The notes under the pieces were generated by a model. It was not told the DNA's origin and ran no database searches. It saw nothing but the letters and a program-made list of their open reading frames with translations. Positions 2,715-17,839 of a DNA stretch of 64,000 bases are shown here, in pieces. Both the position numbers and the translations under genes were made by a program. Origin of the DNA: Cellulosimicrobium marinum (GTDB taxonomy: Bacteria > Actinomycetota > Actinomycetes > Actinomycetales > Cellulomonadaceae). The stretch covers positions 748,108 to 812,107 of the forward strand of contig NZ_JAJBZH010000001.1 of NCBI RefSeq assembly GCF_020551945.1, read 5' to 3'. How positions within the stretch are numbered: position 1 is the stretch's first letter; each line of letters begins with the position of its first letter.

Positions 2715-2777
2715 GCGGAGGTCTCCAGTTCTCGCTCGCGGGAACATCCGGGCGGTGGGCGCGTTGCACTCTACATC

Positions 2778-2807
2778 TTGACGGGAATGGTTCTCACTAT
2801 CTACCGT
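2778..2807 (+). promoter_or_regulatory. Zur box inside a promoter (site 1)
   Basis: The 15-bp palindrome at 2782-2796, read on the minus strand as TGAGAACCATTCCCG, matches the actinobacterial Zur operator pattern. It lies between a -35 (TTGACG, 2778-2783) and a -10 (TACCGT, 2802-2807) separated by 18 bases and directed at rpmB. The same box is 68 bases from the divergent COG0523-like gene, so one site can repress both. Confidence 0.8.
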
Positions 2808-2834
2808 CGCGGGGTCGTCCAGAAAGGAACCACC

Positions 2835-3071
2835 ATGTCCGCCCACTGCCAGGTGCTCGGCACCTCGCCGGGGTTCGGCCACTCGATCTCGCACTCGCAC
2901 GTGCGGACCAAGCGGCGCTTCGACCCCAACATCCAGAAGAAGCGCTACTGGGTGCCCTCGCTCGGCCGCACCGTCACGCTGCGCGTGAGCGCCCGCGGCA
3001 TCAAGACCATCGACCGCACGGGGATCGACGTCGTCGTGGCGCAGATCCTCGCGAGAGGGGAGAAGCTCTGA
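2835..3071 (+). CDS. rpmB: Ribosomal protein L28, zinc-independent paralogue
   Basis: A 78-residue L28 with the signature [20 protein letters not shown] and the C-terminal [11 protein letters not shown] block. Only one cysteine (Cys5) is present, so the paired-Cys zinc ribbon of the C+ form is absent. In actinobacteria such C- paralogues replace the zinc-binding copies during zinc limitation and free zinc. It is the first gene of the rpmB-rpmG-rpsN-rpmE-rpmJ cluster behind a Zur box. ATG 2835 follows AGAAAGGA. The stop shares one base with the rpmG start. Family certain; condition-specific use is established for the type and inferred here. Confidence 0.95.
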
Positions 3072-3238
3072 TGGCTGCCCGACAGGACCTGCGTCCCGTG
3101 ATCAAGCTGCGGTCCACCGCAGGCACCGGGTACACGTACGTGACCCGCAAGAACCGGCGCAACGACCCCGACAGGCTCGTGCTCCGCAAGTTCGACCCCG
3201 TCGTGCGCCGGCACGTCGACTTCCGCGAGGAGCGCTGA
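3071..3238 (+). CDS. rpmG: Ribosomal protein L33, zinc-independent paralogue
   Basis: A 55-residue L33: [29 protein letters not shown] followed by the [12 protein letters not shown] tail (motifs shown in part: [29 protein letters not shown]). The protein contains no cysteine, unlike the zinc-ribbon form with two CxxC pairs. Start and stop each overlap the neighbouring genes (TGATG junctions), which indicates tight translational coupling in the operon. It replaces the zinc-containing L33 in the large subunit under zinc limitation, by analogy with known Zur-regulated paralogues. Confidence 0.95.
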
Positions 3239-3543
3239 TGGCCAAGAAGTCCACGATCGCCCGCAACGACCAGCGCGCGCTCGTCGTCGCCCGGTTCGCC
3301 GAGCGGCGTGCCGAGCTCAAGCGCGTGGTGGCGTCGCCGTCGTCCACGCCCGACGAGAAGGCCGCGGCCGTGCTCGAGCTGCAGCGTCAGCCGCGCGACG
3401 CGAGCGCCACCCGCCTGCGCAACCGCGACGTGGCCGACGGCCGCCCCCGCGGCCACCTGAGGAAGTTCGGCATCTCGCGCGTGCGGATGCGCGCGATGGC
3501 GCACCGCGGCGAGCTGCCCGGCGTCACGAAGTCCAGCTGGTAG
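3238..3543 (+). CDS. rpsN: Ribosomal protein S14, zinc-independent paralogue
   Basis: A 101-residue S14 of the long C- type, starting MAKKST and ending KSSW, with the conserved [17 protein letters not shown] block at about residues 69-85. It has no cysteine, while the zinc-binding S14 is short (about 61 residues) with a CxxC...CxxC ribbon. The ATG overlaps the rpmG stop. It acts in the head of the small subunit. Part of the Zur-type alternative ribosomal protein operon. Confidence 0.95.
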
Positions 3544-3601
3544 CCGGCGGGCGGCACGCCGCCTCGCACCCGGCACAGCACCAGCACGAAGGAGAAGCAC
3601 G

Positions 3602-3901
3602 GTGAAGAAGACCATCCACCCCGAGTACGGGCCCGTCGTCTACCGCGACAAGTCCGCCGACTTCGCGTTCCTCACGCGCTCGACCCTCGCGGGCGACCAC
3701 CCGCAGGGTCCGGGCGTGCCGCGCGAGACGATCACGTGGACCGACGGGAACACCTACCCCGTCGTCGACGTCGAGATCTCGAGCGCGAGCCACCCGTTCT
3801 ACACGGGCACGCAGCGCGTCGTCGACACCGCCGGCCGCGTCGAGCGGTTCCGCCAGCGCTACGGCACCCGCGGCGGCGTGCAGGACGGAGGTGCGCGATG
3901 A
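3602..3901 (+). CDS. rpmE2: Ribosomal protein L31 type B
   Basis: A 99-residue type B L31 ([39 protein letters not shown]). Type B lacks the CxxC zinc site of L31A and carries the longer C-terminal extension; no cysteine is present here. The start is GTG 3602, supported by the strong AAGGAGAAGCAC sequence just upstream. The 58-base gap after rpsN has no separate promoter that I can recognise. The stop overlaps the rpmJ ATG (ATGA). Confidence 0.95.
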
Positions 3902-4020
3902 AGGTCCGCGCCTCGCTGCGCTCGCTCAAGGACAAGCCCGGCGCCAAGGTCGTGCGGCGCCGAGGCAAGACGTACGTCATCAACAGGCTCAACCCGCGCT
4001 GGAAGGCGCGCCAGGGCTGA
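3898..4020 (+). CDS. rpmJ: Ribosomal protein L36, zinc-independent paralogue
   Basis: A 40-residue L36 ([20 protein letters not shown], then [19 protein letters not shown]). The usual CxxC...CxxxH zinc site of L36 is replaced by non-cysteine residues, as in the C- type. It is too short for ordinary ORF cut-offs but is clear by homology and by the ATGA overlap with rpmE2. It is the last gene of the operon, followed by a long hairpin. Confidence 0.95.
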
Positions 4021-4149: not shown

Positions 4150-4938
<789 letters not shown>

Positions 4939-4939
4939 G

Positions 4940-5995
4940 TCAGCCCAGGTTCGCCACGGCCTGCTGGAGCCGCTCCAGCCCGGCGACGGACGCCGGCGAG
5001 GCGGTGGTCTCGTTCGCGGGGATCCCGACGACGCGACCCGCCTCCACGGCCTGGAGGTCGCTCGCCCCGGGCTCGGCGAGGAACCGGGCCTCGGCCTCCT
5101 CGAACGACTCTCCGTGCAGGCCGTACGCGAGGACGATCACCTCGGGGTCGGCGTCGAGCAGCGACTCGAGCGAGATCTCCAGGTACGTCTCGGGCTCGTC
5201 GGCGTACACGTTCTCCAGTCCCGCCTCGTCCATGAGCGACTGGATGATGCCCGCGCCCCCGTAGGTGCTCAGGGGCGAGCTGGACGAGAAGTAGTACACG
5301 GTGGCCGCCGAGCGCGACGTGTCGGGCCGCTCGGCCGCGACGGCGTCGAGGCGCTCGCGCAGCGCGTCCACCGACGCCGCGGCGGCTGCCTGCGTGTCGA
5401 ACACGGCGCCGAAGCGCTCGATGTCACCGAGGACGACGTCGAACGTCACGGGCTCGGGGGTCGTGCCGACGTCGTGCCCGCACTCGCCGGACACGGTGAG
5501 CGTGGGGATGCCGGCGTCTGCGAGCGCGGCGGGGTCGGCGTTGAAGAACCCGTACCCGACGACGACCTCGGCCCCGGCCCCGATGACCTGCTCGGTCGTC
5601 GGGTCGGAGGGGTCGACGACCGTCGCGTCCGTCGGGGGGTTCTCCAGGCCCTCGGGCAGCTCGGCCCCGAACTCGCCGGAGCGTGCCGTGACGCGGTCGG
5701 CCGCGCCCGCGGCGTCGAGCAGGGCGACGGCGTCGCTCCCGATGGTGAGGACGGAGCCGGGGGCGGCGTCGAACGTCACCTCCTCGCCGCAGTCCTCGAC
5801 GGTGACGGGGTAGGTCGTGGCGGCGGCGTCCGTGGTCCCGGACGTCGCGGACGGCTCCGCGTCGTCGGGAGCGCCGGCGTCGCTCGCGCTCGCGCAGCCC
5901 GCGAGGGCGAGCGTGCCGACGGCCAGCGAGGCGAGCGCGACGGCCGGGCGGCGTCGGGCGCGTCCGCGCGGGGTGCGGTGCAGGGAGGTGGTCAT
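4940..5995 (-). CDS. Metallophore-type ABC importer substrate-binding lipoprotein
   Basis: A 351-residue exported lipoprotein. The signal peptide ends with lipobox LAGC (Cys about 34), followed by a low-complexity linker. Two lobes of the FecB/BtuF fold follow, with segments such as VLTIGSDAVALLDAAG in lobe 1 and VIVLAYGLHGESFEEA in lobe 2. It is not His-rich like ZnuA and lacks the ZnuA-type loop, so it should bind a chelate rather than a bare ion. It sits between the permease and ATPase genes downstream of a Zur box. It may capture the product of the neighbouring RiPP genes; this is a hypothesis. Confidence 0.85.
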   Translation of the reverse strand: MTTSLHRTPRGRARRRPAVALASLAVGTLALAGCASASDAGAPDDAEPSATSGTTDAAATTYPVTVEDCGEEVTFDAAPGSVLTIGSDAVALLDAAGAADRVTARSGEFGAELPEGLENPPTDATVVDPSDPTTEQVIGAGAEVVVGYGFFNADPAALADAGIPTLTVSGECGHDVGTTPEPVTFDVVLGDIERFGAVFDTQAAAAASVDALRERLDAVAAERPDTSRSAATVYYFSSSSPLSTYGGAGIIQSLMDEAGLENVYADEPETYLEISLESLLDADPEVIVLAYGLHGESFEEAEARFLAEPGASDLQAVEAGRVVGIPANETTASPASVAGLERLQQAVANLG

Positions 5996-6058: not shown

Positions 6059-7126
6059 TCAGGCGGTGGACAGGCGGTGGACGAGGACGACGAGCAGCGG
6101 CGTCCCGAGGAGCGCGGTGAGCACGCCGAGGGGGAGCTCGGCGGGGGCGACGACGGACCGCGCGAGCGTGTCGGCCCAGACGAGCACGACGGCGCCGAGC
6201 AGCGCCGCGGTCGGGAGCAGCACGCGATGGGCCCCGCCGACGAGCAGGCGGGCGAGGTGCGGGACGACGAGCCCGACGAACCCGATCGCGCCGGACACGG
6301 ACACGGCCGTGGCGACGAGGAGGGCGACGAGCAGCGCCGCGGCGGCGCGGAACCGCGTGGGGTGCGTGCCGAGCGACCGCGCGGTGTCGTCGCCGAGCGC
6401 CATCGCGTCGAGGCGGCGCGACCAGGCCCAGAACACGACGACGGACACGGCGGTGACGATCCAGACCGGGCCGAGGACGTCCCAGCGGCTCTGGCCGAGC
6501 GACCCGAGGGTCCAGAACAGGACGGCGCGGACGCCGTCGCGCGAGTCGGCGAAGAACACCATGAGGTTGGTGAGCGCGCCGAGCGCGAGGCCGACGGCGA
6601 TCCCGGCGAACACGAGGCGGGACGGGACGAGGCGACCGCCGATCCGGGCGACGGCGAAGACGAGCACGATCGCGACGACGGCGCCGAGGAACGCGCTGCC
6701 GGCGAGCGCCGTCGCGCCGGTGACGGCGGCGAGCCCGAAGAGGATGTGGGCCGCCGCGCCCGCGGTGGCGCCGGAGGAGATGCCGAGCAGGTAGGGGTCG
6801 GCGAGCGGGTTGCGCACGAGGGCCTGGATGACCGCCCCGGCGACGGACAGCGCGGCGCCGACGGCGATGCCGGTGAGGACTCGCGGGGCGCGCAGGAGCC
6901 AGACGATGTTGTCCTCGGACGCGCTCCACCAGGGGTCGGTGGCGCCGACGCCGAGGTGGTGGGCGACGACGGCGAGCACGCGCTCGGGCGCGACGGCGAC
7001 GGAGCCGACGCCGACGCTGAGGACCGCCGTGGCGGCGAGCCCGACGGCGAAGGCGCCGAGCACGAGCGCGGACGCCCCTGGTCCGCGATGTCCGGTGCGC
7101 GCAATCCGGGTGACTTCGGTCGTCAT
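6059..7126 (-). CDS. Metallophore-type ABC importer permease (FecCD family)
   Basis: A 355-residue FecCD/BtuC permease with about ten hydrophobic helices. Typical segments are RAPRVLTGIAVGAALSVAGA (about 85-104), NPLADPYLLGISSGA (about 113-127) and IGFVGLVVPHLARLLVG near residue 275. It is the first gene of the operon. ATG 7126 lies nine bases from the Zur box at 7136-7150, so zinc-dependent repression is likely. A 63-base gap separates it from the lipoprotein gene. FecCD permeases import siderophores, heme, cobalamin and zincophore-like chelates. Confidence 0.9.
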   Translation of the reverse strand: MTTEVTRIARTGHRGPGASALVLGAFAVGLAATAVLSVGVGSVAVAPERVLAVVAHHLGVGATDPWWSASEDNIVWLLRAPRVLTGIAVGAALSVAGAVIQALVRNPLADPYLLGISSGATAGAAAHILFGLAAVTGATALAGSAFLGAVVAIVLVFAVARIGGRLVPSRLVFAGIAVGLALGALTNLMVFFADSRDGVRAVLFWTLGSLGQSRWDVLGPVWIVTAVSVVVFWAWSRRLDAMALGDDTARSLGTHPTRFRAAAALLVALLVATAVSVSGAIGFVGLVVPHLARLLVGGAHRVLLPTAALLGAVVLVWADTLARSVVAPAELPLGVLTALLGTPLLVVLVHRLSTA

Positions 7127-7128
7127 GG

Positions 7129-7158
7129 TTGCGAATGATAACCGTTCTTGGTTAGGGT
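7129..7158 (+). promoter_or_regulatory. Zur box in divergent promoter (site 2)
   Basis: The core TGATAACCGTTCTTG at 7136-7150 matches the other three Zur-like palindromes in the window. On the plus strand it lies between TTGCGA (7129-7134) and TAGGGT (7153-7158), spacing 18. It serves the exporter/RiPP operon rightward and, nine bases from its ATG, the importer operon leftward. Confidence 0.75.
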
Positions 7159-7166
7159 CCGTGACC

Positions 7167-7190
7167 ATGTCCGAGAGCGCACGACGATGA
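7167..7190 (+). CDS. Possible leaderless 7-codon mini-ORF coupled to the exporter gene
   Basis: ATG 7167 opens a seven-codon frame (MSESARR) whose TGA overlaps the exporter ATG as ATGA. The -10 TAGGGT ends eight bases before this ATG, so a leaderless transcript would begin close to it. It could be a coupling peptide for the exporter gene. The frame is very short and may be chance. Confidence 0.25.
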   Translation: MSESARR

Positions 7191-8935
7191 GGCCCGACTC
7201 CGTCCACCTCCGCCTGCTCGGCCTGCTGGGTCCGCTCCGCCGGACGCTGGTCGGGCCGTTCCTCCTCGGCCTGCTCGTCTCGTTCCTCCTGCTCGCGCAG
7301 GCGTACGCGACGTCGCGGATCTTCGTCGCGCTCTTCGCCGACCCGGTCGGCGAGACCGGGCCGTGGCTCGCGCTGCTCGTCGTGCTGCTCCTCGTGCGGC
7401 CCGGCGTCGCGATCGCCCGCGAGCGCCTGTCGGTCCTCGCGATGACGCGCGTGAAGTCCGACCTGCGCGCCCGGGTCCTCGACCGGCTCGCCGCGCGGGG
7501 GCCCGTGCCGCTCGCCCGCGAACGCACCGGGCACGTGCAGTCGCTCCTCGTCGACGGCGTGGAGAACCTCGACCCGTACTTCAGCCGGTACGTGCCGCAG
7601 GTCGGGATCGTCGCGGCGAACACGGTCGTCGTCGTCGCGATCCTGGCCGTCGTCGACCCGGTGGTCGCCGCCGCGGTCGGCGCGTGCGCGGTCGCGGTCC
7701 CCCTGCTCCCGCGGGCGTGGGACGCCGTGCTCGCGCAGCGCGGCCGGTCCCACTGGGAGGCCTACTCGGGCCTGCACGCCGAGTTCGTCGACTCCCTGCG
7801 GGCGATGACGACGCTCAAGGCGATCGGTGCGGTCGAGCGGCGTCAGGCCGCGCTCGGCGACGCGTCCCGGAGCCTGCTCGCGCGGACCATGACGCAGCTC
7901 AAGGTCTCGCTCGTGGAGTCCGGCATCTCGGCGTTCGCGCTCGTGCTCGGCCCGCTCGTCGCCGTCGTCGTGAGCCTCGCCCGGATCCGCTCGGGGGCGC
8001 TCGACCCCACGGACGTGTTCGTCGTCAGCCTCCTCACGTTCGAGCTGTTCCGCCCGTTCCGCGAGCTGTCCGCCCACTGGCACGCCGGGTACCTCGGGGT
8101 GTTCGCCGGGCAGCAGGTCCTCACCGTCCTGGACCAGCCCGCGGTCCCGGCGCCCGCGCGTCCCGCGACGCTGCCCGACGCGCCCGGCCTCGCCGTGGAG
8201 CTCGACGACGTCCGCTACACCTACCCCGACGCCGCCCGTCCCGCCCTCGACGGCGTCTGCCTCCACGTCCCCGCCGGGTCGACCGTGGCGCTCGTGGGAC
8301 CGAGCGGGTCCGGCAAGTCGACCGTCGCGGCGCTCCTGGCCCGGTTCGCGCTCCCGGACGCGGGGACCGTGCGCGTGGGCGGCGTCGCGACCGCCGACCT
8401 CGACCCGGCGACGTGCGTGCGCGCCGTCGGCCTCGTGCCCCAGACGCCCGTGCTGTTCCACGGCACGCTGCGCTCCAACCTGCTCGACGGCGCCCCCGAC
8501 GCGTCGGACGCGGACCTCGCCGAGGCGGTGGCCGTCACGGGCCTCGACCAGCTCGGCGACGGGGACGCGCTCGCCGCCCTCGACCGGTCGGTCGGGGAGC
8601 GCGGCGCGCTGCTGTCCGGGGGGCAGCGCCAGCGCGTCGCCGTCGCGCGCCAGCTCGTGCGCCGCACGCCCGTCCTCGTGCTCGACGAGGCGACGTCCGC
8701 CCTCGACGTGCGCGGCGAACGCACCCTGCTCGACGCGCTCGCCGCCGCCCGCCCCGCCCAGACGCGCCTCGTCGTCGCGCACCGGCTCGCCGCGGTGCGG
8801 GACGTGCCGACGATCGTCGTGCTCGCCGACGGCCGGGTCGCCGAGGTGGGCGACCACGACACCCTGCTCGCCGCGGGAGGGCGCTACGCCGCGATGTCCC
8901 GGCACCAGGAGCGATCCGTGGCGGTGGACGCATGA
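7187..8935 (+). CDS. CydD-like ABC exporter subunit (half-transporter A)
   Basis: A 582-residue half exporter: an N-terminal six-helix type-1 exporter domain (about 1-315) and a C-terminal nucleotide-binding domain with Walker A GPSGSGKST, signature LSGGQRQR, Walker B VLVLDEATSALD and switch VVAHRL. The closest pattern is CydD of CydDC, but there are no cydAB genes here. The next gene overlaps by ATGA and encodes the partner, then the peptide and YcaO genes follow. Export of the processed RiPP product is therefore the likely job. Thiol export as in true CydDC is the alternative. Confidence 0.85.
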   Translation: MRPDSVHLRLLGLLGPLRRTLVGPFLLGLLVSFLLLAQAYATSRIFVALFADPVGETGPWLALLVVLLLVRPGVAIARERLSVLAMTRVKSDLRARVLDRLAARGPVPLARERTGHVQSLLVDGVENLDPYFSRYVPQVGIVAANTVVVVAILAVVDPVVAAAVGACAVAVPLLPRAWDAVLAQRGRSHWEAYSGLHAEFVDSLRAMTTLKAIGAVERRQAALGDASRSLLARTMTQLKVSLVESGISAFALVLGPLVAVVVSLARIRSGALDPTDVFVVSLLTFELFRPFRELSAHWHAGYLGVFAGQQVLTVLDQPAVPAPARPATLPDAPGLAVELDDVRYTYPDAARPALDGVCLHVPAGSTVALVGPSGSGKSTVAALLARFALPDAGTVRVGGVATADLDPATCVRAVGLVPQTPVLFHGTLRSNLLDGAPDASDADLAEAVAVTGLDQLGDGDALAALDRSVGERGALLSGGQRQRVAVARQLVRRTPVLVLDEATSALDVRGERTLLDALAAARPAQTRLVVAHRLAAVRDVPTIVVLADGRVAEVGDHDTLLAAGGRYAAMSRHQERSVAVDA

Positions 8936-10749
8936 GCGCCACGACCGGCACCACCGCGACGACCGGCACGACCGCGACGACGTCGCGCGCGCTCGTCGCC
9001 GAGGTGCTGCGCCTGCGGCACCTGCTGTCCGGCCAGCGGGCCCTGTTCGTCGCGTCCGTCGCCCTGCTCGTCGCGATGCAGCTCTGCGCCGCCACGGTCT
9101 CCGTGCTCACCGCGTGGACGACGGCGCGGATCGCCGCCGACCACCTCGACTGCGTGACGCTCTGGCTCGTCCTGCTCGCGATCGCCGTCACGGGCCTCGG
9201 GGTGCTCACCTGGCTCGAGTCCTGGTGGTCCCACGTGCTCGCCTACCGCGTGCTGTCGACCATGCGCCTCGCGCTGCACGCCGCGATCGGCCGCATCGCC
9301 CCCGGCGGGCTCGCCGGCCGCCGCACCGGCGAGGTCGCGGGCGCGGCGATCAACGACGTCGAGCAGCTCGAGTGGTTCTACGCCCACACGGCGGGCGCGT
9401 CCGTCGCGGCGCTGCTCAGCCCGCTGGCCATGGTCGGGACCGCCGTCGCCCTCACGGGCCCGGCCGGGCTGCTCCCCGCCGCGGGCCTCGTCGTGCTCCT
9501 CGTGCCGCTGTGGTTCCTCGGCCCCGTGCAGGCGCGTCAGGGGGAGCGCGTGCGTGCCGAGCTGTCGGCGCTCAAGGCCGACACGCTCGAGGGCGCACAG
9601 GGCCTGCGCGACCTCCTCACCCTCGGCGCGGCCGGACGCCAGTCCGACGTCGTGCTGGAGCGCACCGCCGCCCTGCAGCGCGCACGGCTCACGTTCACGG
9701 TGCGCGCCGGGGCCGAGTCGGCGCTCGCGGACCTCGTCATGGCGTCGGTCAACGTCGGGATGCTCGCGCTGCTCGGCGCGCGCGTGCGCGACGGGTCCCT
9801 CGACCCCGTCGTGGTGCCCGTCGCCGTCGTGCTCGTGCTCCACACCTTCGCACCCGTCACGGGCGTGTACGCGATGTGGCAGCGGCTCGGCGAGATGGCC
9901 GCCGCGGCCCGCCGCGTCGACGACGTGAGCCGCGCGCCGTCGCCCGTCGACGACTCCGCGGCCACGTCGGAGCCGTTCGACGGCGCGGGCGACGTCGAGC
10001 TCGTGGGGGTCCGCGCGGGGTACGGCGACCGGGAGGTGCTGCACGACGTCGACCTGCGCGTCCCGCAGGGCCAGACCGTCGCGCTCGTCGGCGCGAGCGG
10101 CGCGGGGAAGTCGACGCTCGTGCACCTGCTCGTGCGGTTTGCCGAGGCCGACGCGGGCGTCGTGCGGGTCGGTGGGCGCGACCTGCGGACCGTCCCGGCC
10201 GACCGCGTGCGCGAGCGGGTCGTCCTCGTGCCCCAGACGTCGTACGCGATGCGCGCCACCCTGCGCGAGAACCTGCTCCTCGCACGCCCGACGGCGAGCG
10301 ACGACGACGTCCTGCGCGCCCTGCGGGACGCGGCCCTCGGCGACCTCGTCGACACGCTCGACGGCGGCCTCGACGCGCCGCTCGGGGAGGGCGGCGGCAC
10401 CCTGTCCGGCGGCCAGCTCCAGCGCCTCGCCATCGCCCGTGCGCTGCTGCTCGACCCGGCCGTCCTCGTCCTCGACGAGCCCGTCGCCCACCTCGACGCG
10501 CTCGCCGAGGCCGAGCTCAACGCGTCGCTGCGGCGCACGCGGCCCGGGCGCACCACGCTCGTCGTCGCGCACCGCGTCTCGACCATCCGTGCCGCCGACC
10601 GCGTCGTCCTGCTCGACGACGGCCGTGTCGTCGCCGACGGCACGCACGAAGACCTGCTGGCCACGTCGCCGGAGTACCGGCGTCTGGTCAGCGAGGAGAC
10701 CGCGACCCCGACCGGGGACGCGGACGCACCACAGCCGCAGAGGGGGTGA
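8932..10749 (+). CDS. CydC-like ABC exporter subunit (half-transporter B)
   Basis: A 605-residue half exporter and heterodimer partner of the previous protein. The N-terminus is an unusual Thr/Gly repeat (TTGTTATTGTT). A six-helix domain (about 30-340) and a nucleotide-binding domain follow, with GASGAGKST, LSGGQLQR, LVLDEPVAHLD and VVAHRVST. Both ATP sites look intact apart from conservative changes in the Walker B follow-on (PVAHLD for ATSALD). It starts in an ATGA overlap, and the peptide gene begins six bases after its stop. Position argues for export of the peptide product. Confidence 0.85.
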   Translation: MSATTGTTATTGTTATTSRALVAEVLRLRHLLSGQRALFVASVALLVAMQLCAATVSVLTAWTTARIAADHLDCVTLWLVLLAIAVTGLGVLTWLESWWSHVLAYRVLSTMRLALHAAIGRIAPGGLAGRRTGEVAGAAINDVEQLEWFYAHTAGASVAALLSPLAMVGTAVALTGPAGLLPAAGLVVLLVPLWFLGPVQARQGERVRAELSALKADTLEGAQGLRDLLTLGAAGRQSDVVLERTAALQRARLTFTVRAGAESALADLVMASVNVGMLALLGARVRDGSLDPVVVPVAVVLVLHTFAPVTGVYAMWQRLGEMAAAARRVDDVSRAPSPVDDSAATSEPFDGAGDVELVGVRAGYGDREVLHDVDLRVPQGQTVALVGASGAGKSTLVHLLVRFAEADAGVVRVGGRDLRTVPADRVRERVVLVPQTSYAMRATLRENLLLARPTASDDDVLRALRDAALGDLVDTLDGGLDAPLGEGGGTLSGGQLQRLAIARALLLDPAVLVLDEPVAHLDALAEAELNASLRRTRPGRTTLVVAHRVSTIRAADRVVLLDDGRVVADGTHEDLLATSPEYRRLVSEETATPTGDADAPQPQRG

Positions 10750-10754
10750 ATCAC

Positions 10755-10865
10755 ATGTCGATCGAGATCACGGAGGTCGTCGCGCAGGTCGAGGAGGACG
10801 CGATCCTCGCGCCGAACTCGCACAACCACGGCCACACCACGACCGTCTTCGCCTGGAACGCCTGA
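10755..10865 (+). CDS. Putative RiPP precursor peptide, His-rich, YcaO-associated
   Basis: A 36-residue ORF immediately upstream of two YcaO-family genes and downstream of an exporter pair. The first about 20 residues are acidic (EITEVVAQVEEDAILAPN), like a leader peptide. The tail reads SHNHGHTTTVFAWNA: His23, His25 and His27 form HxHxH, followed by Thr28-Thr30 and aromatic Phe32 and Trp34. There is no cysteine, so YcaO chemistry would have to act on Thr or Ser (methyloxazoline or oxazoline) or on the backbone. GAGGGGGTG upstream is a plausible ribosome site. A perfect hairpin follows it. I know no named family for it; its assignment comes from context, size and composition. Confidence 0.8.
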   Translation: MSIEITEVVAQVEEDAILAPNSHNHGHTTTVFAWNA

Positions 10866-10880
10866 GCCAGGTGACGACGG

Positions 10881-10923
10881 GGGTCGGGCTCGCCGCCGAC
10901 GCAACCGGCGGCGAGCCCGACCC
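10881..10923 (+). terminator. 18-bp hairpin between precursor and YcaO genes (partial terminator)
   Basis: Positions 10881-10898 pair perfectly with 10906-10923 (arm begins GGGTCGGGCTCGCCGCC) around a 7-base loop. It sits 15 bases after the peptide stop and 48 bases before the YcaO start. In RiPP operons such hairpins raise precursor mRNA above enzyme mRNA by partial termination or 3' protection; that function is inferred. Confidence 0.7.
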
Positions 10924-10971
10924 ACCCATCGTCCACCCGACCCGCACCACCGACCGCCCGGAGGGGCCGCC

Positions 10972-13209
10972 ATGACGACCACCACCCCCACGCCCGTCCG
11001 GACCGCGGTCGAGCTGCGCCCGCTGCCCGGCGGGCGCACCCTGCTCACGACGCCCGGCTCGCGCCACTTCACGCTCGGGACGAGCGCGGGCGACGCGCTG
11101 CGCCTGCTCGACGCCGCCGCGCACCCGGAGCGCGCCTCCGTCGCCCTCCCCGACGGGTGGCCCGAGGCGGCCCGCGCGATCGCGGGGCTCCTGGAGCGCG
11201 TCGGCACCGAGAGGGCCGACGGGGCCGACGAGAGCCCGGCCGACGTCGCGTCGGCGGAGGTCCCCGTCCGGCTCCCCGACGGCGAGCGCTGGGTCCTGTA
11301 CGGCGACGCGGGGGTCGTCGCGGCACTCGTGGCCGCGGTCGACCCCGCCGACCTCGGGGGTCCGGACCCGCGCGTCGAGACGGCGACCGGGGCCCTCCAC
11401 GAGGCGGTGCACCGCGCGTTCGCGCGCGGCGCCGTCCTGCTCGTCGCGCAGCGGGGCCACAGCGCGACGACGTTCGTCGCGGCCGACCGGGCGTGCGCCG
11501 ACGCGCGCGTGCCCTGGGTGCCCGTCGTGCTGGAGCGCTCGCGCGTCGAGGCCGGGCCGTGGGTCACGCCGGGTGTCGGAGCGAGCTACGAGGACTACCT
11601 CGCGCGCCGGATCGCCGCGGGCCCCGACGACGAGACCGAGCGCGCGCTCGTCACGCCATCCCTGACCGGCGACTGTGGCGCCGACCCCGAGGCGCTGCCG
11701 GCGGCGTTCGCGACCGTCGCCGCGCTCCTCGTCGGCGACGCGCGGGTGCGCGGCGGCGACACGGTCGTCGCGACGGGCCCCGGCGCGCCCGACGTCGAGC
11801 ACCACCCCGTCCTCCCGCTGCCCGGCCCGCGCCGCCACCACCGCGACCGGGCGCCGTCGGACCTCGCCGACCCGCTCACCGGGATCGTCACCCGGGTGCG
11901 CTCCATCACCCACCACCCGTCGGTGCCCGCGTCGCTCGCGACCGTCCAGGCCGACGTGTGCACCATGCGCCGCGTGTCGCGGTGGGCCAACAGCACGTCG
12001 TGCCAGGGCAGCGCGTTCGGCGACCCCGCGTCGGCGCGCGCCGCGGCCCTCGGCGAGGCCGTCGAGCGCTACTGCGGCAACATGCTCGACACGCTGCCCG
12101 TCGAGCACGGGTCGTGGACGGAGCTGTCCCGCCGCCCGGTCGGGCGCGTGCTCCACCCCGACGATCTCGTCCTCTACTCCGACGCGCAGCACGCCGCGCC
12201 CGGGTTCCCGTTCGTCCGGCTCACGCCCGACCTCCCCGTGCACTGGGTGCCCGGCCGGTCCCTCACGCACGACGAACCGGTCTGGGTCCCGGCCTCGCTC
12301 GTCTACGTCAACTGGTTCACGGCGGGCTACTCCGCCGCGCCCGTGACGAACTTCTGCCCGTTCGCGGGCATCGCGGCCGGCCCGACGTGGGAGTACGCGG
12401 TGACGAGCGCGCTCGAGGAGGTCGTCGAGCGGCACGCCACGATGGTGTGGTGGCTCAACGGGCAGCCGCTCGACGCCGTCGACCCCGGCCCGGAGCTCTC
12501 CGCGCTGTGGGACGACGTGCGCGGGCACGGCCAGCGCCCCGGCCTCGTCGCGCTCGACAACGAGTTCGGCATCCCCGTCGCCGCGGGAGTCCTGTGGAAC
12601 GACCACGACGACCTGCTCAACATCGGCTTCTCCGCGCGTGCCGACCTGCGCTCGGCCGCGCTCAAGGCCTGGACGGAGTCGCTCACCCTGCAGGAGGGGT
12701 CGCGCGACCTGCTCGCGCGCGACGGCCGGCACTGGGGCGCGATGCGCCGCGGCGCCCTCAACGGCCGGTCCTTCAAGCCGTGGCGTGCGGACCGCCGCTA
12801 CCTCGACGACTTCCGCGCCGACATGCACGACTGCGACGACCTCATGGTGCAGCAGCAGGTGCACCTCGACCCGCGCTCCCTCGACCGCGTCCGGCCGATC
12901 GTCGACACCCCCGTCCGCCGGACCCTCGACGACGTCCCGTCCCTGCCCGCCCGCTCCCTGGAGCACTACCTCGACCGGGTCCACGCGCTCGGTCACGAGG
13001 TGGTCGTCGTCGACATCACCTCGGCCGACGTCGCGGCCACCGGGCTGCGCGTCGTGCGCGTCGTCGTGCCCGGCACCGTCGGCAACGCGCCCGCCGCGTT
13101 CCCGTTCCTCGGCAAGGGCCGCGTGCAGGACCTCGCGGTCGAGCTCGGCTGGCGCGAGCGCGCCCTCGCCGAGGACGAGCTCAACGTCTTCCCCCTCCCG
13201 CACGCGTGA
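10972..13209 (+). CDS. YcaO-family cyclodehydratase fused to an E1-like leader-binding domain
   Basis: A 745-residue protein. Residues about 1-285 resemble the Ocin-ThiF/E1-like partner of azoline-forming systems, including the segment AGPWVTPGVGASYEDYLARR. Residues about 290-745 are a YcaO domain with ATP-site motifs SARAAALGEAVERYC (about 350-364) and ALEEVVERHA (about 480-489), and a further QEGSRD. The C-terminus ends FPLPHA, a reduced version of the Pro-rich tail of azoline-forming YcaOs. It should activate backbone amides of the peptide with ATP. Cyclodehydration of Thr is the likely outcome; no TfuA and no flavin dehydrogenase are seen, so thioamide and azole products are less supported. 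The downstream gene overlaps by GTGA. Confidence 0.85.
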   Translation: MTTTTPTPVRTAVELRPLPGGRTLLTTPGSRHFTLGTSAGDALRLLDAAAHPERASVALPDGWPEAARAIAGLLERVGTERADGADESPADVASAEVPVRLPDGERWVLYGDAGVVAALVAAVDPADLGGPDPRVETATGALHEAVHRAFARGAVLLVAQRGHSATTFVAADRACADARVPWVPVVLERSRVEAGPWVTPGVGASYEDYLARRIAAGPDDETERALVTPSLTGDCGADPEALPAAFATVAALLVGDARVRGGDTVVATGPGAPDVEHHPVLPLPGPRRHHRDRAPSDLADPLTGIVTRVRSITHHPSVPASLATVQADVCTMRRVSRWANSTSCQGSAFGDPASARAAALGEAVERYCGNMLDTLPVEHGSWTELSRRPVGRVLHPDDLVLYSDAQHAAPGFPFVRLTPDLPVHWVPGRSLTHDEPVWVPASLVYVNWFTAGYSAAPVTNFCPFAGIAAGPTWEYAVTSALEEVVERHATMVWWLNGQPLDAVDPGPELSALWDDVRGHGQRPGLVALDNEFGIPVAAGVLWNDHDDLLNIGFSARADLRSAALKAWTESLTLQEGSRDLLARDGRHWGAMRRGALNGRSFKPWRADRRYLDDFRADMHDCDDLMVQQQVHLDPRSLDRVRPIVDTPVRRTLDDVPSLPARSLEHYLDRVHALGHEVVVVDITSADVAATGLRVVRVVVPGTVGNAPAAFPFLGKGRVQDLAVELGWRERALAEDELNVFPLPHA

Positions 13210-15026
13210 GCCGCCACGCGCACGTCGCGGCGCTCGGCGACGGCCTCGTCGTCACCGTGGGGGAGCGGGTCGTGCGCGTCGCGGTGTCCGCCGCGCGGCT
13301 CGGCGACGACGGCGTGCGCGACGACGTGCGCGCGGCCCTCGAGGGCCGCCTCGGCCCCCTCGCGACGTGGCCGCCGGACGAGCCCTCCGAGGAGACCGTG
13401 TGGTGGTGGGGCGGGGCGTGGTACGCGTGCCGCGCCGCCGACGCCGACCTGGCGCGCCGGGTCGTGCGGACCGGCGCGCCCGACGCCGCCACCGCGCAGG
13501 CTTGGGACGCCCGCGCCCTCGATCTCGGACCGGACCTCGGACCGGACCTCGGCCTGCAGGTGCGGCCGGACCCGGACCGCGCGACGGCGCTCGCGGCCTC
13601 CCGGACCGTGGCGCCCGGGTCCGTGGTGCGGTGCGCGGACGGTCGCACGTCGCTCCACGCGGTCGCGCCGTGGCCCGACGTCGACCCGGTCAGCGGCGTC
13701 GCCCGTGCGGTCCTCGTCCGCCCGCACGACCTCGGACTGCCCACGGCGTTCCGGCACGTCCAGGCCGTGCTGCCGCGCACCGAGCTCGGCTGGCCGACCT
13801 GGCAGGCCGACCGCCTCGCGCAGACGGGCGTCCTCGTCGGGCCGGACGACGACGCCGGGCGGCTCGTCCACGACGCGGCGCTCGACGCGGCGGTCGCCCA
13901 CCTGGGCGGGCCGTGGACGGGCGCGGCGCCGGTGCGCACGGCGTCGGTCGCGGACCTGGCCGGGGCGGGTGAGCGGTTCGTCGCGCCGGAGCGGCTCGCC
14001 GTCGTCGACCCCGCGGTCGTCGCCGACCCCCGGTCACCCCTCGTCGCGCTCGACCCGGCGCGGCCGCTCGCGTGGGTGCGCGGGCACCGGGTGCGGGACG
14101 ACGCCCCGACGTGGGTGCCGCTCCGGTTCGCGCACACGGTGCACGGCGTCGTCGCGGACCAGCCGCCCTCGGCCTTCCACAACCTCGCAGGGGCCGCGGC
14201 CGCGACCACGCGCGACGAGGCCGTGCACCGGGCGCTCGGCCACGTGGTCTCGCACGACGCCGTCGCCCGGTGGTGGCGCCGCGCCGACGCCCCGCCGCCC
14301 GCGGAGATCGCCGTGCCGGACGCGCTGCTCCGGCTGTGGGACGACGCGACCGTCGAGCTCGCGCTCCACCGGCTCCCCGGGCCGCCCGGCTGGGACGTCG
14401 TCCTGGCCGTCGTGCGGGACACCGTCCGCGGGCTGCGCGGGCTGGGCCACGCTGCCGGTCCTCTTGCCGAACATGCAGCAGGTCCTGCGGGCGAGCACCG
14501 CGGGGCCGTGGACGTGGCCCGACGCGCGGCCGCCGACGCCCTCGTCCAGCTCACCTCGGCCCGCGACCTCGCGCGCGCGGACAGCCGCATCAGGAACGCG
14601 GTGGACCGTGGTCTCGGTGTCGTCGCCGGGCTGCTCGACCACCGCCCGTCCCGGGACCACCTCGACGACGTGCCGCTCCTGGACGACGTCGCGGGCGGAC
14701 GGGTCCGGCCCCGCGCGCTCGACCCGCTCGTGCACGTCCAGGTCGGCCTGGACCCGCGCGTCGTCGAGCACCTGGAGACCCGGCTCGGCCGTGGCCCGCG
14801 GGTTCCCGCAGGCGTGGCCCTGCCGGCCGGCGACGCGGCTCGCCCCGACGAGGCCGCCGACCCCGGCGAGGCCGTCCGCGTCGACATCGCGCCGCCGGTG
14901 CTCGGCCCCGGTCGGGCGGCCGTCCGGGTCCTGGTCGCGGGCGCGCTCCGGCTCGAACCGGCCGCGTTCCCGGTCGTGACGTCCGCCGAGGGTGTGCCGG
15001 AGACGGTGCCGTACCCCGGGTGGTGA
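13206..15026 (+). CDS. Divergent YcaO-like partner protein with degenerate ATP site
   Basis: A 606-residue protein that aligns with the YcaO domain of its neighbour. LAWVRGHRVRDDAPTWVP matches VHWVPGRSLTHDEPVWVP, and AVHRALGHVVSHDAVARWW matches AVTSALEEVVERHATMVWW. The catalytic acids are gone: ALEEVVERHA has become ALGHVVSHDA, and the first ATP motif AAALGEAVERYC has become DAALDAAVAHLG. It is probably a non-catalytic structural or substrate-binding partner, or it has another reaction. The GTG start overlaps the YcaO stop. The middle carries a short internal repeat (LGPDLGPDLG near residue 103). No symbol is warranted. Confidence 0.7.
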   Translation: MSRHAHVAALGDGLVVTVGERVVRVAVSAARLGDDGVRDDVRAALEGRLGPLATWPPDEPSEETVWWWGGAWYACRAADADLARRVVRTGAPDAATAQAWDARALDLGPDLGPDLGLQVRPDPDRATALAASRTVAPGSVVRCADGRTSLHAVAPWPDVDPVSGVARAVLVRPHDLGLPTAFRHVQAVLPRTELGWPTWQADRLAQTGVLVGPDDDAGRLVHDAALDAAVAHLGGPWTGAAPVRTASVADLAGAGERFVAPERLAVVDPAVVADPRSPLVALDPARPLAWVRGHRVRDDAPTWVPLRFAHTVHGVVADQPPSAFHNLAGAAAATTRDEAVHRALGHVVSHDAVARWWRRADAPPPAEIAVPDALLRLWDDATVELALHRLPGPPGWDVVLAVVRDTVRGLRGLGHAAGPLAEHAAGPAGEHRGAVDVARRAAADALVQLTSARDLARADSRIRNAVDRGLGVVAGLLDHRPSRDHLDDVPLLDDVAGGRVRPRALDPLVHVQVGLDPRVVEHLETRLGRGPRVPAGVALPAGDAARPDEAADPGEAVRVDIAPPVLGPGRAAVRVLVAGALRLEPAAFPVVTSAEGVPETVPYPGW

Positions 15027-15123
15027 CCGGCGGCAGCGGTCCCTCGTCAGCGTCCTCGGGGGCGGCTCGGTGCTCCTCGCCGTGGTCGTGGCCGCGCACG
15101 CGTGGGCGCAGTGGCGAGAATGA
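14992..15123 (+). CDS. Possible small one-helix membrane protein
   Basis: A 43-residue frame starting at GTG inside the end of the YcaO-like gene. It has a basic N-terminus (CRRRCR...DRRQR) and one hydrophobic helix (VSVLGGGSVLLAVVVAAHAW). Its TGA is the first base triplet of the Zur box at 15121. There is no good ribosome site, so chance is a real possibility. Confidence 0.2.
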   Translation: MCRRRCRTPGGDRRQRSLVSVLGGGSVLLAVVVAAHAWAQWRE

Positions 15124-15148
15124 GAATGATTCCAAGTTCTGTTACTGT
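15121..15148 (+). promoter_or_regulatory. Zur box upstream of AztD-like gene (site 3)
   Basis: TGAGAATGATTCCAA at 15121-15135 is the best match in the window to the classical Zur operator. A -10-like TACTGT lies at 15143-15148. It is directed at the AztD-like lipoprotein gene that starts at 15230. Confidence 0.8.
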
Positions 15149-15229
15149 CGAGAACGAGTCGCCTTCTCAGGCACCCGTCCCCCCGAAAGGAGTGGGCTCC
15201 GCCGCGCCCTGCGCGGGGCCCGACCACGC

Positions 15230-16618
15230 ATGCGCCACACCACCCGCACCCGTCGGCCGCTCGCGGCCGTGGGCCTCGTCCTCCCGCTCGCGCTCCTCGC
15301 GGCCTGCTCGGGCGGCGACCAGGCCGCCGAACCGTCGGCGAGCGAGACCACGACCGAGGCCGCGCCCACCGAACCGACCGAGGCGGCCGCGCGCAGCCCG
15401 CGCCTCGCCGTCACCTACGACGGCGGCATCCAGGTGCTCGACGCCCAGACGCTGGAGGTCGTCGGCGAGCTCGAGCTCGACGGTTTCAACCGGCTCAACG
15501 GCGCAGGCGACGGTCGTCACCTCTACGTCTCCACCACCGGCGGGTTCCAGGTGCTCGACGCGGGCGCCTGGGCCGAGCCGCACGGCGACCACGACCACTA
15601 CTACACGGCCGCCCCGCAGCTCACGGACGTGGTGGTCGACGCCGAGAAGCCCGGCCACGTCGTCGTGCACGGCGGCCGCACCGCGCTGTTCGACGACGGC
15701 ACGGGCCAGGTGACGGTCCTCGACTCGTCCGCGGTCGCCGACGACGCCGCCGAGACGCGCGAGCTCACCACCCCCGAGGCGCACCACGGCGTCGCCGTCG
15801 AGCTGTCCGACGGCACGCTCGTCGTCTCGGAGGGCACGGAGGACGCGCGGACCGGCATCCGGGTGCTCGACGCGGACGGCACCGAGACCGCCTCCTCGGA
15901 CGAGTGCCCCGGCGTGCACGGCGAGGCCGTGGCCGCCGACGAGGCCGTCCTCGTCGGCTGCGAGGACGGCGTCCTGATCGTCAAGGACGGCGCGATCACC
16001 AAGGTCGCGAGCCCCGACGCCTACGGCCGCATCGGCAACCAGGCCGGCAGCGAGGAGTCCACGGTCGTCCTCGGCGACTACAAGTCGGACCCCGACGCCG
16101 AGCTCGAGCGCCCGACGCGCGTCTCCCTCACCGACACCGCGACCGGCGAGCTCACCCTCGTCGACCTCCCGTCGTCGTACACGTTCCGCTCGCTCGCGCG
16201 CGGTGCCGAGGGCGAGGGCCTCGTGCTCGGCACGGACGGCCAGATCCACGTCATCGACCCGGCGACGAAGGAGCTCGTCCGGTCGATCCCGGTGATCGAC
16301 GCGTGGGAGGAGCCCGAGGAGTGGCAGTCGCCGCGCCCCGCGATCTTCATGCTCGACGGCTCGGCCTACGTGACCGACCCCGCGAACCGGGCGATCCACG
16401 CCGTGGACGTCGAGACGGGCGAGGTGTGGAACTCCGTCGAGCTCGAGGTGGAGCCCAACGAGATCAACGGCGTGTCCGGTGACGTCGAGCACGGCGAGGA
16501 CGAGCACGGCGAGGACGAGCACGCCCACGAGGACGAGGAGCACGCGGACGAGGAGCACGCGGACGAGGAGCACGCCCACGAGGGCGAGGAGCACGACCAC
16601 GAGCACGCCGACGAGTGA
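15230..16618 (+). CDS. aztD: AztD-like zinc metallochaperone lipoprotein
   Basis: A 462-residue exported lipoprotein with signal MRHTTRTRRPLAAVG and lipobox LAAC (Cys about 25). The body is a predicted beta-propeller with repeated strand-turn units such as RLAVTYDGGIQVLD. It carries a His/Asp zinc loop (EPHGDHDHYY, about residues 116-125) and a C-terminal tail of about 45 residues built of His-Glu-Asp repeats (HADEE, HGEDE). AztD proteins hold zinc outside the membrane and pass it to an importer. The Zur box 95 bases upstream fits. The ORF is open upstream, but ATG 15230 gives the signal peptide. It may receive zinc from, or deliver it to, the neighbouring metallophore importer. Confidence 0.85.
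   Translation: MRHTTRTRRPLAAVGLVLPLALLAACSGGDQAAEPSASETTTEAAPTEPTEAAARSPRLAVTYDGGIQVLDAQTLEVVGELELDGFNRLNGAGDGRHLYVSTTGGFQVLDAGAWAEPHGDHDHYYTAAPQLTDVVVDAEKPGHVVVHGGRTALFDDGTGQVTVLDSSAVADDAAETRELTTPEAHHGVAVELSDGTLVVSEGTEDARTGIRVLDADGTETASSDECPGVHGEAVAADEAVLVGCEDGVLIVKDGAITKVASPDAYGRIGNQAGSEESTVVLGDYKSDPDAELERPTRVSLTDTATGELTLVDLPSSYTFRSLARGAEGEGLVLGTDGQIHVIDPATKELVRSIPVIDAWEEPEEWQSPRPAIFMLDGSAYVTDPANRAIHAVDVETGEVWNSVELEVEPNEINGVSGDVEHGEDEHGEDEHAHEDEEHADEEHADEEHAHEGEEHDHEHADE
16486..16615 (+). repeat. His/Glu/Asp tandem codon repeats in the AztD-like tail
   Basis: Imperfect tandem units of GAGCACGCGGACGAG and GAGCACGGCGAGGAC type encode the acidic His-rich tail, with about a dozen histidines. 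Suitable for low-affinity zinc buffering. Confidence 0.8.
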
Positions 16619-17610: not shown

Positions 17611-17639
17611 TTGATAACCGTTCTCGTTCTGCCTAGGCT
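17611..17639 (+). promoter_or_regulatory. Zur box and promoter of rpmF (site 4)
   Basis: TGATAACCGTTCTCG at 17612-17626 shares 13 of 15 bases with site 2. It overlaps the -35 TTGATA (17611-17616), with -10 TAGGCT at 17634-17639 and spacing 17. A bound repressor would block RNA polymerase. Confidence 0.8.
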
Positions 17640-17668: not shown

Positions 17669-17839
17669 GTGGCCGTGCCCAAGCGCAAGCTCTCCCGCTC
17701 CAACACCCGCGCCCGTCGCTCGCAGTGGAAGGCCCAGGTGCCCCCGCTCGTGACCGTCGTCGTCGACGGCCGCGAGGTCACCGTGCCGCGCCGCCTCGTC
17801 GCCGGTGTGCGGCGCGGGCTCGTCACGCCCCCGGAGTGA
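17669..17839 (+). CDS. rpmF: Ribosomal protein L32, zinc-independent paralogue
   Basis: A 56-residue L32: [20 protein letters not shown] then [20 protein letters not shown]. The CxxC...CxxC ribbon of ordinary L32 is missing and there are no cysteines. The GTG start follows GGAAGGACCACCC. It has its own Zur-type promoter, separate from the five-gene ribosomal operon at 2.8-4.0 kb, and completes a set of six zinc-free paralogues. Confidence 0.9.

Follow-up and report, generated by a model that had tools for sequence, protein, structure and literature searches.

The locus

Within a 64,000-nucleotide stretch of the Cellulosimicrobium marinum genome (contig NZ_JAJBZH010000001.1, positions 748,108 to 812,107; hereafter, the window), two operons diverge from a 60-bp gap (7127-7186). 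The operon on the minus strand encodes a metallophore-type importer; the operon on the plus strand encodes an exporter, a short peptide, and two YcaO-like proteins, which we call Y1 and Y2. An earlier note on this DNA proposed that the peptide is a Zur-regulated zincophore, and every part that it named (the importer, two exporter halves, the peptide, two YcaO-like proteins, and the zinc chaperone AztD) is present. The genes of the two operons, and the operator-like site between them, are:

4150-4938, minus strand: importer ATPase (profile match)
4940-5995, minus strand: importer lipoprotein, a siderophore/cobalamin-type binding protein (PF01497)
6059-7126, minus strand: importer permease of the FecCD family (PF01032, E = 7.3e-89)
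7136-7150: Zur-like box TGATAACCGTTCTTG in the gap between importer and exporter (consensus score and pattern match)
7187-8935, plus strand: exporter half, CydD-like (under the CydD cut-off)
8932-10749, plus strand: exporter half, CydC/CydD-like (under the CydD and CydC cut-offs)
10755-10865, plus strand: precursor peptide of 36 residues, MSIEITEVVAQVEEDAILAPNSHNHGHTTTVFAWNA (sequence and homologs)
10972-13209, plus strand: Y1, a putative fusion of a leader-binding/E1-like part with a YcaO cyclodehydratase, predicted to form azolines (TIGR03604)
13206-15026, plus strand: Y2, a degenerate YcaO paralog that ends in a conserved P[YWF]PGW (PF02624, 66 bits)

The two exporter halves overlap by 4 bp, as do Y1 and Y2. 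Both exporter halves score under the cut-offs of the CydD and CydC models, so we rejected a true CydDC and describe the exporter only as CydDC-like. We also rejected an F420-0 ABC importer, as the importer proteins score below the cut-offs of all three models (TIGR03868, 125 of 392 bits; TIGR03869, 282 of 437 bits; TIGR03873, 237 of 372 bits). The binding protein is of the siderophore/cobalamin kind, unlike the ZnuA kind that binds free zinc; two ZnuA-kind binding proteins are encoded elsewhere in the genome.

Peptide, YcaO, exporter, and importer are inherited together

We scanned one genome per bacterial or archaeal species for Y1 and obtained 25 related loci, all under actinobacterial names except for one labelled Tissierella. 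The importer, the exporter, and the peptide all lie around Y1 in 22 of the 25; the other three loci (L008, L014, and L024) are cut by contig ends. In all 22 uncut loci, the exporter is encoded with the peptide. The loci have two layouts. In type A (13 uncut loci and the window), the importer diverges from the exporter, peptide, and Y1 genes, with Y2 behind Y1. In type B (nine loci), the peptide, Y1, and the exporter are on one strand, and the importer is on the other strand, behind a gene for an S9 peptidase. The S9 gene is present in eight of the nine type B loci and Y2 in none of them. Type B loci are found in Varibaculum, Mobiluncus, Arcanobacterium, Trueperella, and the record labelled Tissierella; in the Mobiluncus mulieris locus (L018), the exporter and a FecCD match lie elsewhere within the same 22 kb. 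The locus labelled Tissierella (L022; Bacillota) is nearly identical to that of Varibaculum and probably comes from a mislabelled or contaminated genome. Also, two oppositely oriented copies of the cluster seem to be present on one Mobilicoccus massiliensis contig (L008 and L009), which is perhaps an assembly artifact.

Among 149 relatives of the window's genome, full-length Y1 and an ortholog of the importer lipoprotein (E < 1e-90) are found in exactly the same four genomes, and no genome has the lipoprotein ortholog without Y1; some match to YcaO is present in 17 of the 149. The cluster is sporadic, since there is no match to Y1 in the 16 other genomes listed for the genus (two of which are less than 90% complete).

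The comparison of the 25 loci removes AztD from the pathway. The earlier note had included it as a component, and in a system of the AztABCD kind, AztD would be expected to be consistently encoded with the importer. Here, AztD is next to the cluster in the window alone and in none of the 25 related loci, so we ruled it out.

A wider sample of the class supports the link between importer and YcaO. Of 394 genomes sampled from the class, 31 had a match to a Y1 profile (E ≤ 1e-80). We analyzed 39 surroundings, namely those from the 30 class genomes besides the window and nine loci from the search of relatives, and these were picked by homology to YcaO only. FecCD has a match in the stretch of 36 of the 39 (the exceptions are L108, L138, and L139); in the L108 genome, a FecCD gene lies about 16 kb upstream of YcaO, outside the stretch. 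Counting the window, FecCD lies in the stretch around YcaO in 30 of the 31 class genomes, which have a mean of 11.8 FecCD matches each, and a random stretch of equal size would be expected to contain one in about 1.1 of the 31. In one genome (G232), the single FecCD match lies in this cluster. The earlier note had named consistent separation of these genes in related genomes as grounds for abandoning its proposal; what we see instead is that importer and YcaO stay together (4 of 149; 30 of 31).

Overall, genes for biosynthesis, export, and dedicated import, as a metallophore would need, are present and are inherited together. The peptide, the YcaO protein, the exporter, and the metallophore-type importer, with Zur-like operators, are supported as one linked system; of the system as first proposed, AztD drops out, and so does Y2 as a working YcaO enzyme (see below).

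The precursor peptide

The peptide is not a chance open reading frame, since a homolog lies just upstream of Y1 in the 22 uncut loci. Four positions are invariant across 21 aligned peptides (P20, H25, F32, and W34). The predicted core is residues 21-36, NSHNHGHTTTVFAWNA, which follow Pro20. As expected for the precursor of an azole or azoline peptide, the gene adjoins that of the enzyme, and the core contains Ser, Thr, or Cys. With cleavage after Pro20 (see below), the product of the window's cluster would be NSHNHGHTTTVFAWNA with one or more azolines. The calculated [M+H]+ of this core is 1793.81 without modification, 1775.80 with one azoline, and 1757.79 with two.

A search with a peptide profile identified 71 related clusters, of which 64 are type A-like ([LR]AP[NST]) and seven are type B (VPHC). 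(One of the weakest matches, P0189, resembles a frame-shifted read.) In the type A-like peptides, two His residues lie at most one residue apart in 61 of 64, HxH is present in 54 of 64, and Thr is found two residues before Phe/Ile in 60 of 64. All seven type B peptides have HCHH and a Ser/Thr just before Phe/Ile. In nearer relatives of the window, the candidate peptides, which were chosen by eye, are APHNHA[VT]TA[AG]SFHWS (L104-L106) or LAPNSNHHSHSTVGISFSWAL (L107). The Oerskovia flava peptide is 92% identical to that of the window.

S9 prolyl-oligopeptidase-family genes are found in type B loci (with a GMSHG motif, as read from the sequence) and in several of the wider loci. Together with the conserved Pro before the core, these genes suggest that the leader is cut after Pro20.

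Y1 and Y2

Y1 resembles the SagD type of cyclodehydratase (243 bits against TIGR03604, with a cut-off of 219). Its E1-like part is a weak match to TIGR03882 (20 bits, under the cut-off of 37). The closest relatives of Y1 with solved structures are the cyanobactin-type heterocyclases TruD and LynD, plus MusD, which serve cyanobactin-type products. Alignment of the predicted fold extends along the length of both LynD and MusD, with LynD as the best match (E = 6.5e-34; predicted model with pLDDT of 83). The Glu/Arg/Gln positions that bind ATP are invariant in 25 aligned rows. The C-terminal end, FP[LIM]PHA in 26 of 26 rows (the window and the 25 loci), lines up with NPTPMP at the end of TruD and LynD, and a Pro-rich end of this sort is required for cyclodehydration; distant members end in WPIPHA, VPLPHT, PIPHV, PPPH[ML], and similar motifs. 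Y1 thus shares a Pro-rich end with these enzymes, but its motif is not PxPxP, and it sits with a metal importer. The structure entry for MusD is titled for ATP-dependent peptidase activity, and by analogy Y1 might also cut the leader. Thioamide or amidine chemistry may be an alternative to azolines; our search for TfuA covered ten proteins of the window. Of the 313 database relatives of Y1, the 120 listed go by source names such as "YcaO-like family protein," "TOMM precursor leader peptide-binding protein," or "bacteriocin biosynthesis docking scaffold."

Y2 retains the YcaO fold (its best match is MusD, E = 3.0e-14; predicted model with pLDDT of 77). The Glu/Arg residues that are conserved in Y1 (E362/E365/R366 and E483/E486/R487), which hold ATP-Mg in YcaO enzymes, are lost in 16 of 16 Y2 proteins, and the P[YWF]PGW end is kept in all 16. 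The suggestion that Y2 is a second working YcaO protein is therefore not supported; our reading of the sequences is that it would be a dead paralog that is kept as a structural or allosteric subunit.

Zur-like operators

The surroundings of the cluster point to a zinc-starvation regulon. These neighbors, and the other Zur-like boxes, are:

1536-2900, minus strand: CobW/COG0523-type GTPase, divergent from the ribosomal paralogs (family match)
2782-2796: Zur-like box CGGGAATGGTTCTCA before the L28 paralog (pattern match)
2835-4020, plus strand: Cys-poor paralogs of ribosomal proteins L28, L33, S14, L31, and L36 (named from sequence)
15121-15135: Zur-like box TGAGAATGATTCCAA before aztD (pattern match)
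15230-16618, plus strand: AztD zinc chaperone, a regulon neighbor (NF038015, 473 bits against a cut-off of 400)
17612-17626: Zur-like box TGATAACCGTTCTCG before the L32 paralog at 17669-17839 (pattern match)

The setting among zinc-free ribosomal paralogs is as first described: in the translations, the paralogs of L33, S14, L31, L36, and L32 (names from sequence) have no Cys, and that of L28 has one. The 203-bp gap between Y2 and AztD holds AztD's own Zur-like box, and paralogs of HU and L32 come after AztD. The GTPase is likely to be another gene of the Zur regulon. Its best match in NCBIfam is the ribosome-hibernation-recruiting GTPase (MRF), at 113 of 375 bits, which is under the cut-off.

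The Zur operator of actinobacteria was given as TGAAAATGATTTTCA inside a 21-bp palindrome (PMC2823685). We searched with the pattern TGANAAYSRTTNTCA, with up to two mismatches, and found both of the boxes that had been reported before (at 7136 and 15121) and two more (at 2782 and 17612). The box at 17612 is the only match with one mismatch. The pattern has 29 forward matches in 3.83 Mb, compared to three for a reversed-pattern control, and four of the 29 are within this 15 kb. Because we composed the pattern after inspecting the window's boxes, these four are not an independent test. An independent match lies 20 bp before the chosen start of znuA in the window's genome; this gene comes first in a group that also encodes an ATPase, a permease like ZnuB, and a regulator of the FUR family, which we call znuACB-zur from the gene order.

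Across the window and the 13 type A loci, scores for the best Zur-like site in the divergent gap range from 8 to 12 of 14. For 11 of these 14 loci, no other site in the analyzed sequence equals or exceeds the gap site; the exceptions are the window (39 such sites), L003 (3 sites), and L013 (16 sites). We also counted the best palindrome anywhere in each locus of about 12-23 kb, with 104 scrambled half-sites as the control. These counts exclude L101 and L102 (from the same genomes as L001 and L025), the three loci at contig ends, and the three without FecCD in the stretch. A Zur-like palindrome of at least 10 of 14 is present in 17 of 19 type A-like loci and in 28 of 29 wider loci. None of the 104 scrambles reaches either count, and the means for the scrambles are 2.4 (type A-like) and 4.6 (wider). 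AAATGAT, the scramble with the highest counts (16 and 26), represents this palindrome in another register. Thus, as for members of the Zur regulon, there is an operator-like site in the promoter, namely the 7136 box, which is weak alone, together with its recurrence across relatives.

A branch with iron boxes

The type B loci carry a different operator. Their promoters have DtxR boxes in place of the Zur-like palindromes. The DtxR operator was published as TTAGGTTAG(G/C)CTAACCTAA (PMC1382209), and a box that matches at 14-17 of 18 positions lies before the peptide in all nine type B loci. No box of at least 14 of 18 was found in the 48 other loci, where the best is 11 in type A and 12 in the wider set, and with shuffled half-sites, a score of 14 is reached in an average of 0.7 of the nine type B loci (maximum, 5). 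We rejected control of this branch, which belongs to the Actinomycetaceae, by Zur: its palindromes are equalled by 85 of 104 scrambles (at least 10 of 14) or 17 of 104 (at least 11).

The type B core contains Cys (PHCHH). In the Y1 tree, all nine type B rows group together with full support, next to the type A rows, and Zur-boxed rows lie further out (support of 98/95 and 90/86 at the enclosing forks, with a midpoint root). Read most simply, this would mean that the regulator switched once, from zinc to iron. Because type B pairs the DtxR/iron box with a Cys-containing core, the scaffold seems to have changed its metal, which suggests that one peptide scaffold may serve two metals.

Actinomyces gerencseriae has two paralogous systems in one genome: L011, with a Zur-like box, and L155, whose peptide is ...LAPNSNHHPAVLPTSAFQLSADEEI and whose DtxR-like box matches at just 12 of 18 positions, about 58 bp before the peptide start. 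(L155 was labelled "Fe" by hand in the Y1 tree, and its branch is very long.) This organism may have one system for each metal. Separately, records of Mobiluncus mulieris hold both a VPHCHH peptide and a LAPNSNHHPGPHPTT peptide (P0176 and P0185).

Variation in the wider family

With the iron-boxed branch, its Cys-His core, and the wider family, the finding is larger than first noted. Candidate precursors were found in all 29 of the loci L109-L137. They were chosen by eye, as short open reading frames that lie in the expected gap and have a ribosome-binding-like site, and single ones may be wrong. One group of candidates is of the HSNALVENPFD type (L112-L114, L124, and L126-L137, with a variant in L125), and a SagB-like dehydrogenase is encoded in ten of these loci. 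The other candidates are VHS[SN]NH[AS]T...AWR or VVWR (L110 and L117-L120), PTTHALVQ[NS]PFAWD (L109, L115, and L116), and PGTNALVH[NS]PFV, in two copies (L111 and L121-L123). Two tandem units, either leader and core or core only, are present per open reading frame in L113, L126, L129, and L131 and in L111 and L121-L123.

Zinc-type neighbors are also found in the wider loci, namely S14 and L33 (L132) and a COG0523-like GTPase (L123, L128, and L130); for ribosomal paralogs near the loci of relatives, our in-frame queries were L33, S14, and L31. In many of the wider loci (L112, L113, and similar), a protein that we labelled as beta-propeller-like, and which has no match in NCBIfam, precedes the S9 peptidase.

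Relation to known systems

Part of this family has probably been seen before. Mobilisin (Cox et al. 2015, PMC4603692) is an orphan azole-peptide (TOMM) group from Mobiluncus, Rhodococcus, and other Actinobacteria. That account gives B, C, and D proteins and, in the passages on mobilisin, no function; the precursor was not found automatically, and a short peptide with few Cys, Ser, or Thr residues was spotted by hand (PMC4603692). Since the Mobiluncus mulieris locus L018 fits this description, part of our family is probably mobilisin, with the match being by organism and description only. Both have a cyclodehydratase (fused in mobilisin, a putative fusion in Y1), in Mobiluncus and other Actinobacteria, with such a short peptide beside it. 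However, the passages on mobilisin mention no importer or metal regulator, and this family has an importer and operator-like sites for metal repressors; also, mobilisin is given a B protein, whereas neither the type A nor the type B loci showed a SagB-like gene.

Ribosomal peptides that bind metals are known for copper. Methanobactin is a ribosomal peptide that is matured to bind copper. Bufferins and captophorins (PMC13097082 for the latter) are ribosomal copper-binding peptides that are described for copper stress and are made by MNIO enzymes. In those accounts the metal is copper, while the family studied here has YcaO proteins and zinc or iron operators. Small zinc scavengers under the zinc-starvation response, like the proposed peptide, have also been described: there is an opine-type zincophore (PMC7438024), and coelibactin is a predicted zincophore of Streptomyces (PMC3430247). 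As those sources present them, both resemble the proposed peptide in role and in regulation. To our knowledge, neither is a ribosomal peptide or involves a YcaO protein, and the known zincophores and siderophores come from dedicated synthases or nonribosomal peptide synthetases.

The earlier note knew of no YcaO peptide that acts as a zincophore. We found no functional description of this YcaO-metallophore family, no mention of its core sequences, and nothing that links YcaO to a zincophore or a YcaO peptide to both Zur and zinc in the open-access literature; a report may exist, because subscription papers and most preprints lie outside the search. The cluster is likely to encode a metallophore that is a ribosomally synthesized and posttranslationally modified peptide made by YcaO, which would be new in its kind of enzyme and operators.

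Proposed function and alternatives

Gene content, co-inheritance, conservation of the core, and the operator-like sequences support a zincophore. Based on these, we think that the product of the cluster is probably a peptide metallophore, ribosomally encoded and modified by YcaO, that would be exported and taken up again to supply zinc in shortage. We infer the chemical steps (modification, export, zinc binding, and re-import) from the sequences. In zinc shortage, a Zur-type repressor would leave the 7136 operator, which would free both of the divergent operons. Y1 would bind the leader of the precursor and convert one or a few Ser/Thr residues of NSHNHGHTTTVFAWNA to azolines, with Thr30 as the best single candidate, and Y2 would assist as a catalytically dead paralog. 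The leader would be cut after the conserved Pro20; because related loci encode an S9 enzyme and the window's cluster does not, this would be done by an unlinked protease or by Y1 itself. The CydDC-like exporter would release the product, the imidazoles and the azoline nitrogen would bind zinc, and the lipoprotein, FecCD permease, and ATPase would bring the zinc complex back. In the Actinomycetaceae branch, the same scaffold, with its Cys-His core and iron box, would serve iron.

Several observations weigh against this account. The 7136 box alone is weak, with 8 of 14 positions matching the published consensus, a score that is reached 39 times in 64 kb. Palindromes of at least 12 of 14 are present in only 2 of 19 type A-like loci, and one scramble equals that count. 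In the wider set, the highest-scoring site sometimes lies outside the promoter of the cluster (for example, in L003, L111, L121, and L128). Position 22 is Ser in 44 of the 64 type A-like peptides and Ala in 16, so Ser22 is not an obligatory azoline site. Some of the wider cores (AAPQGPGTNALVHNPFV) carry a single His. The type A clusters, including the window's, have no protease gene. Finally, the genome also has znuACB, so the cluster is not its sole route for zinc.

The alternative that survives best, although we consider it unlikely, is an antimicrobial that is induced by zinc starvation: the YcaO peptide would be exported against competitors, and the importer would have a separate function in zinc uptake or immunity. 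Y1 does belong to a family that makes azole bacteriocins, and some sources name its relatives as bacteriocin docking scaffolds. However, the importer travels with YcaO (in 4 of 4 genomes, with none that has the importer ortholog alone, and in 30 of 31), and the window's cluster has no apparent immunity gene. Furthermore, the cores are His-rich and strongly conserved, while antibacterial cores usually diversify, and the operator turns into an iron box together with the change to a Cys-His core.

Slightly more doubtful is that the importer takes up foreign metallophores, as other FecCD importers do, or free metal, with the modified peptide being an intracellular or cell-surface buffer or sensor for zinc. 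But the peptide never comes without an exporter (22 of 22 uncut loci), and orthologs of the importer without Y1 were not seen among the 149 relatives. It is very improbable that the peptide serves AztD, acting in a surface zinc-chaperone pathway as partner or cofactor rather than as a diffusible carrier: AztD is directly downstream, with its own Zur-like box, but it is beside the cluster in the window only, whereas the importer is constant.

Returning to the metallophore, a broader claim is evenly balanced in our view: that Actinobacteria have a large family of ribosomal metallophores built by YcaO, with one gene kit for production and recycling, and that the metal has changed as this family evolved; Zur-boxed, His-rich cores would be for zinc, and the Actinomycetaceae branch, with its DtxR box, PHCHH core, and prolyl oligopeptidase, would be the first ribosomal siderophore.

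Implications

If the proposed function is correct, then a gene of 36 codons encodes the ligand itself, and the choice of metal could be read, and changed, at single codons. The split between zinc and iron within one family of enzymes provides matched sets of cores, operators, and importers for probing metal specificity. Orphan azole-peptide clusters such as mobilisin would gain a function, and soil and host-associated actinobacteria would have a further way to meet shortages of zinc and iron.

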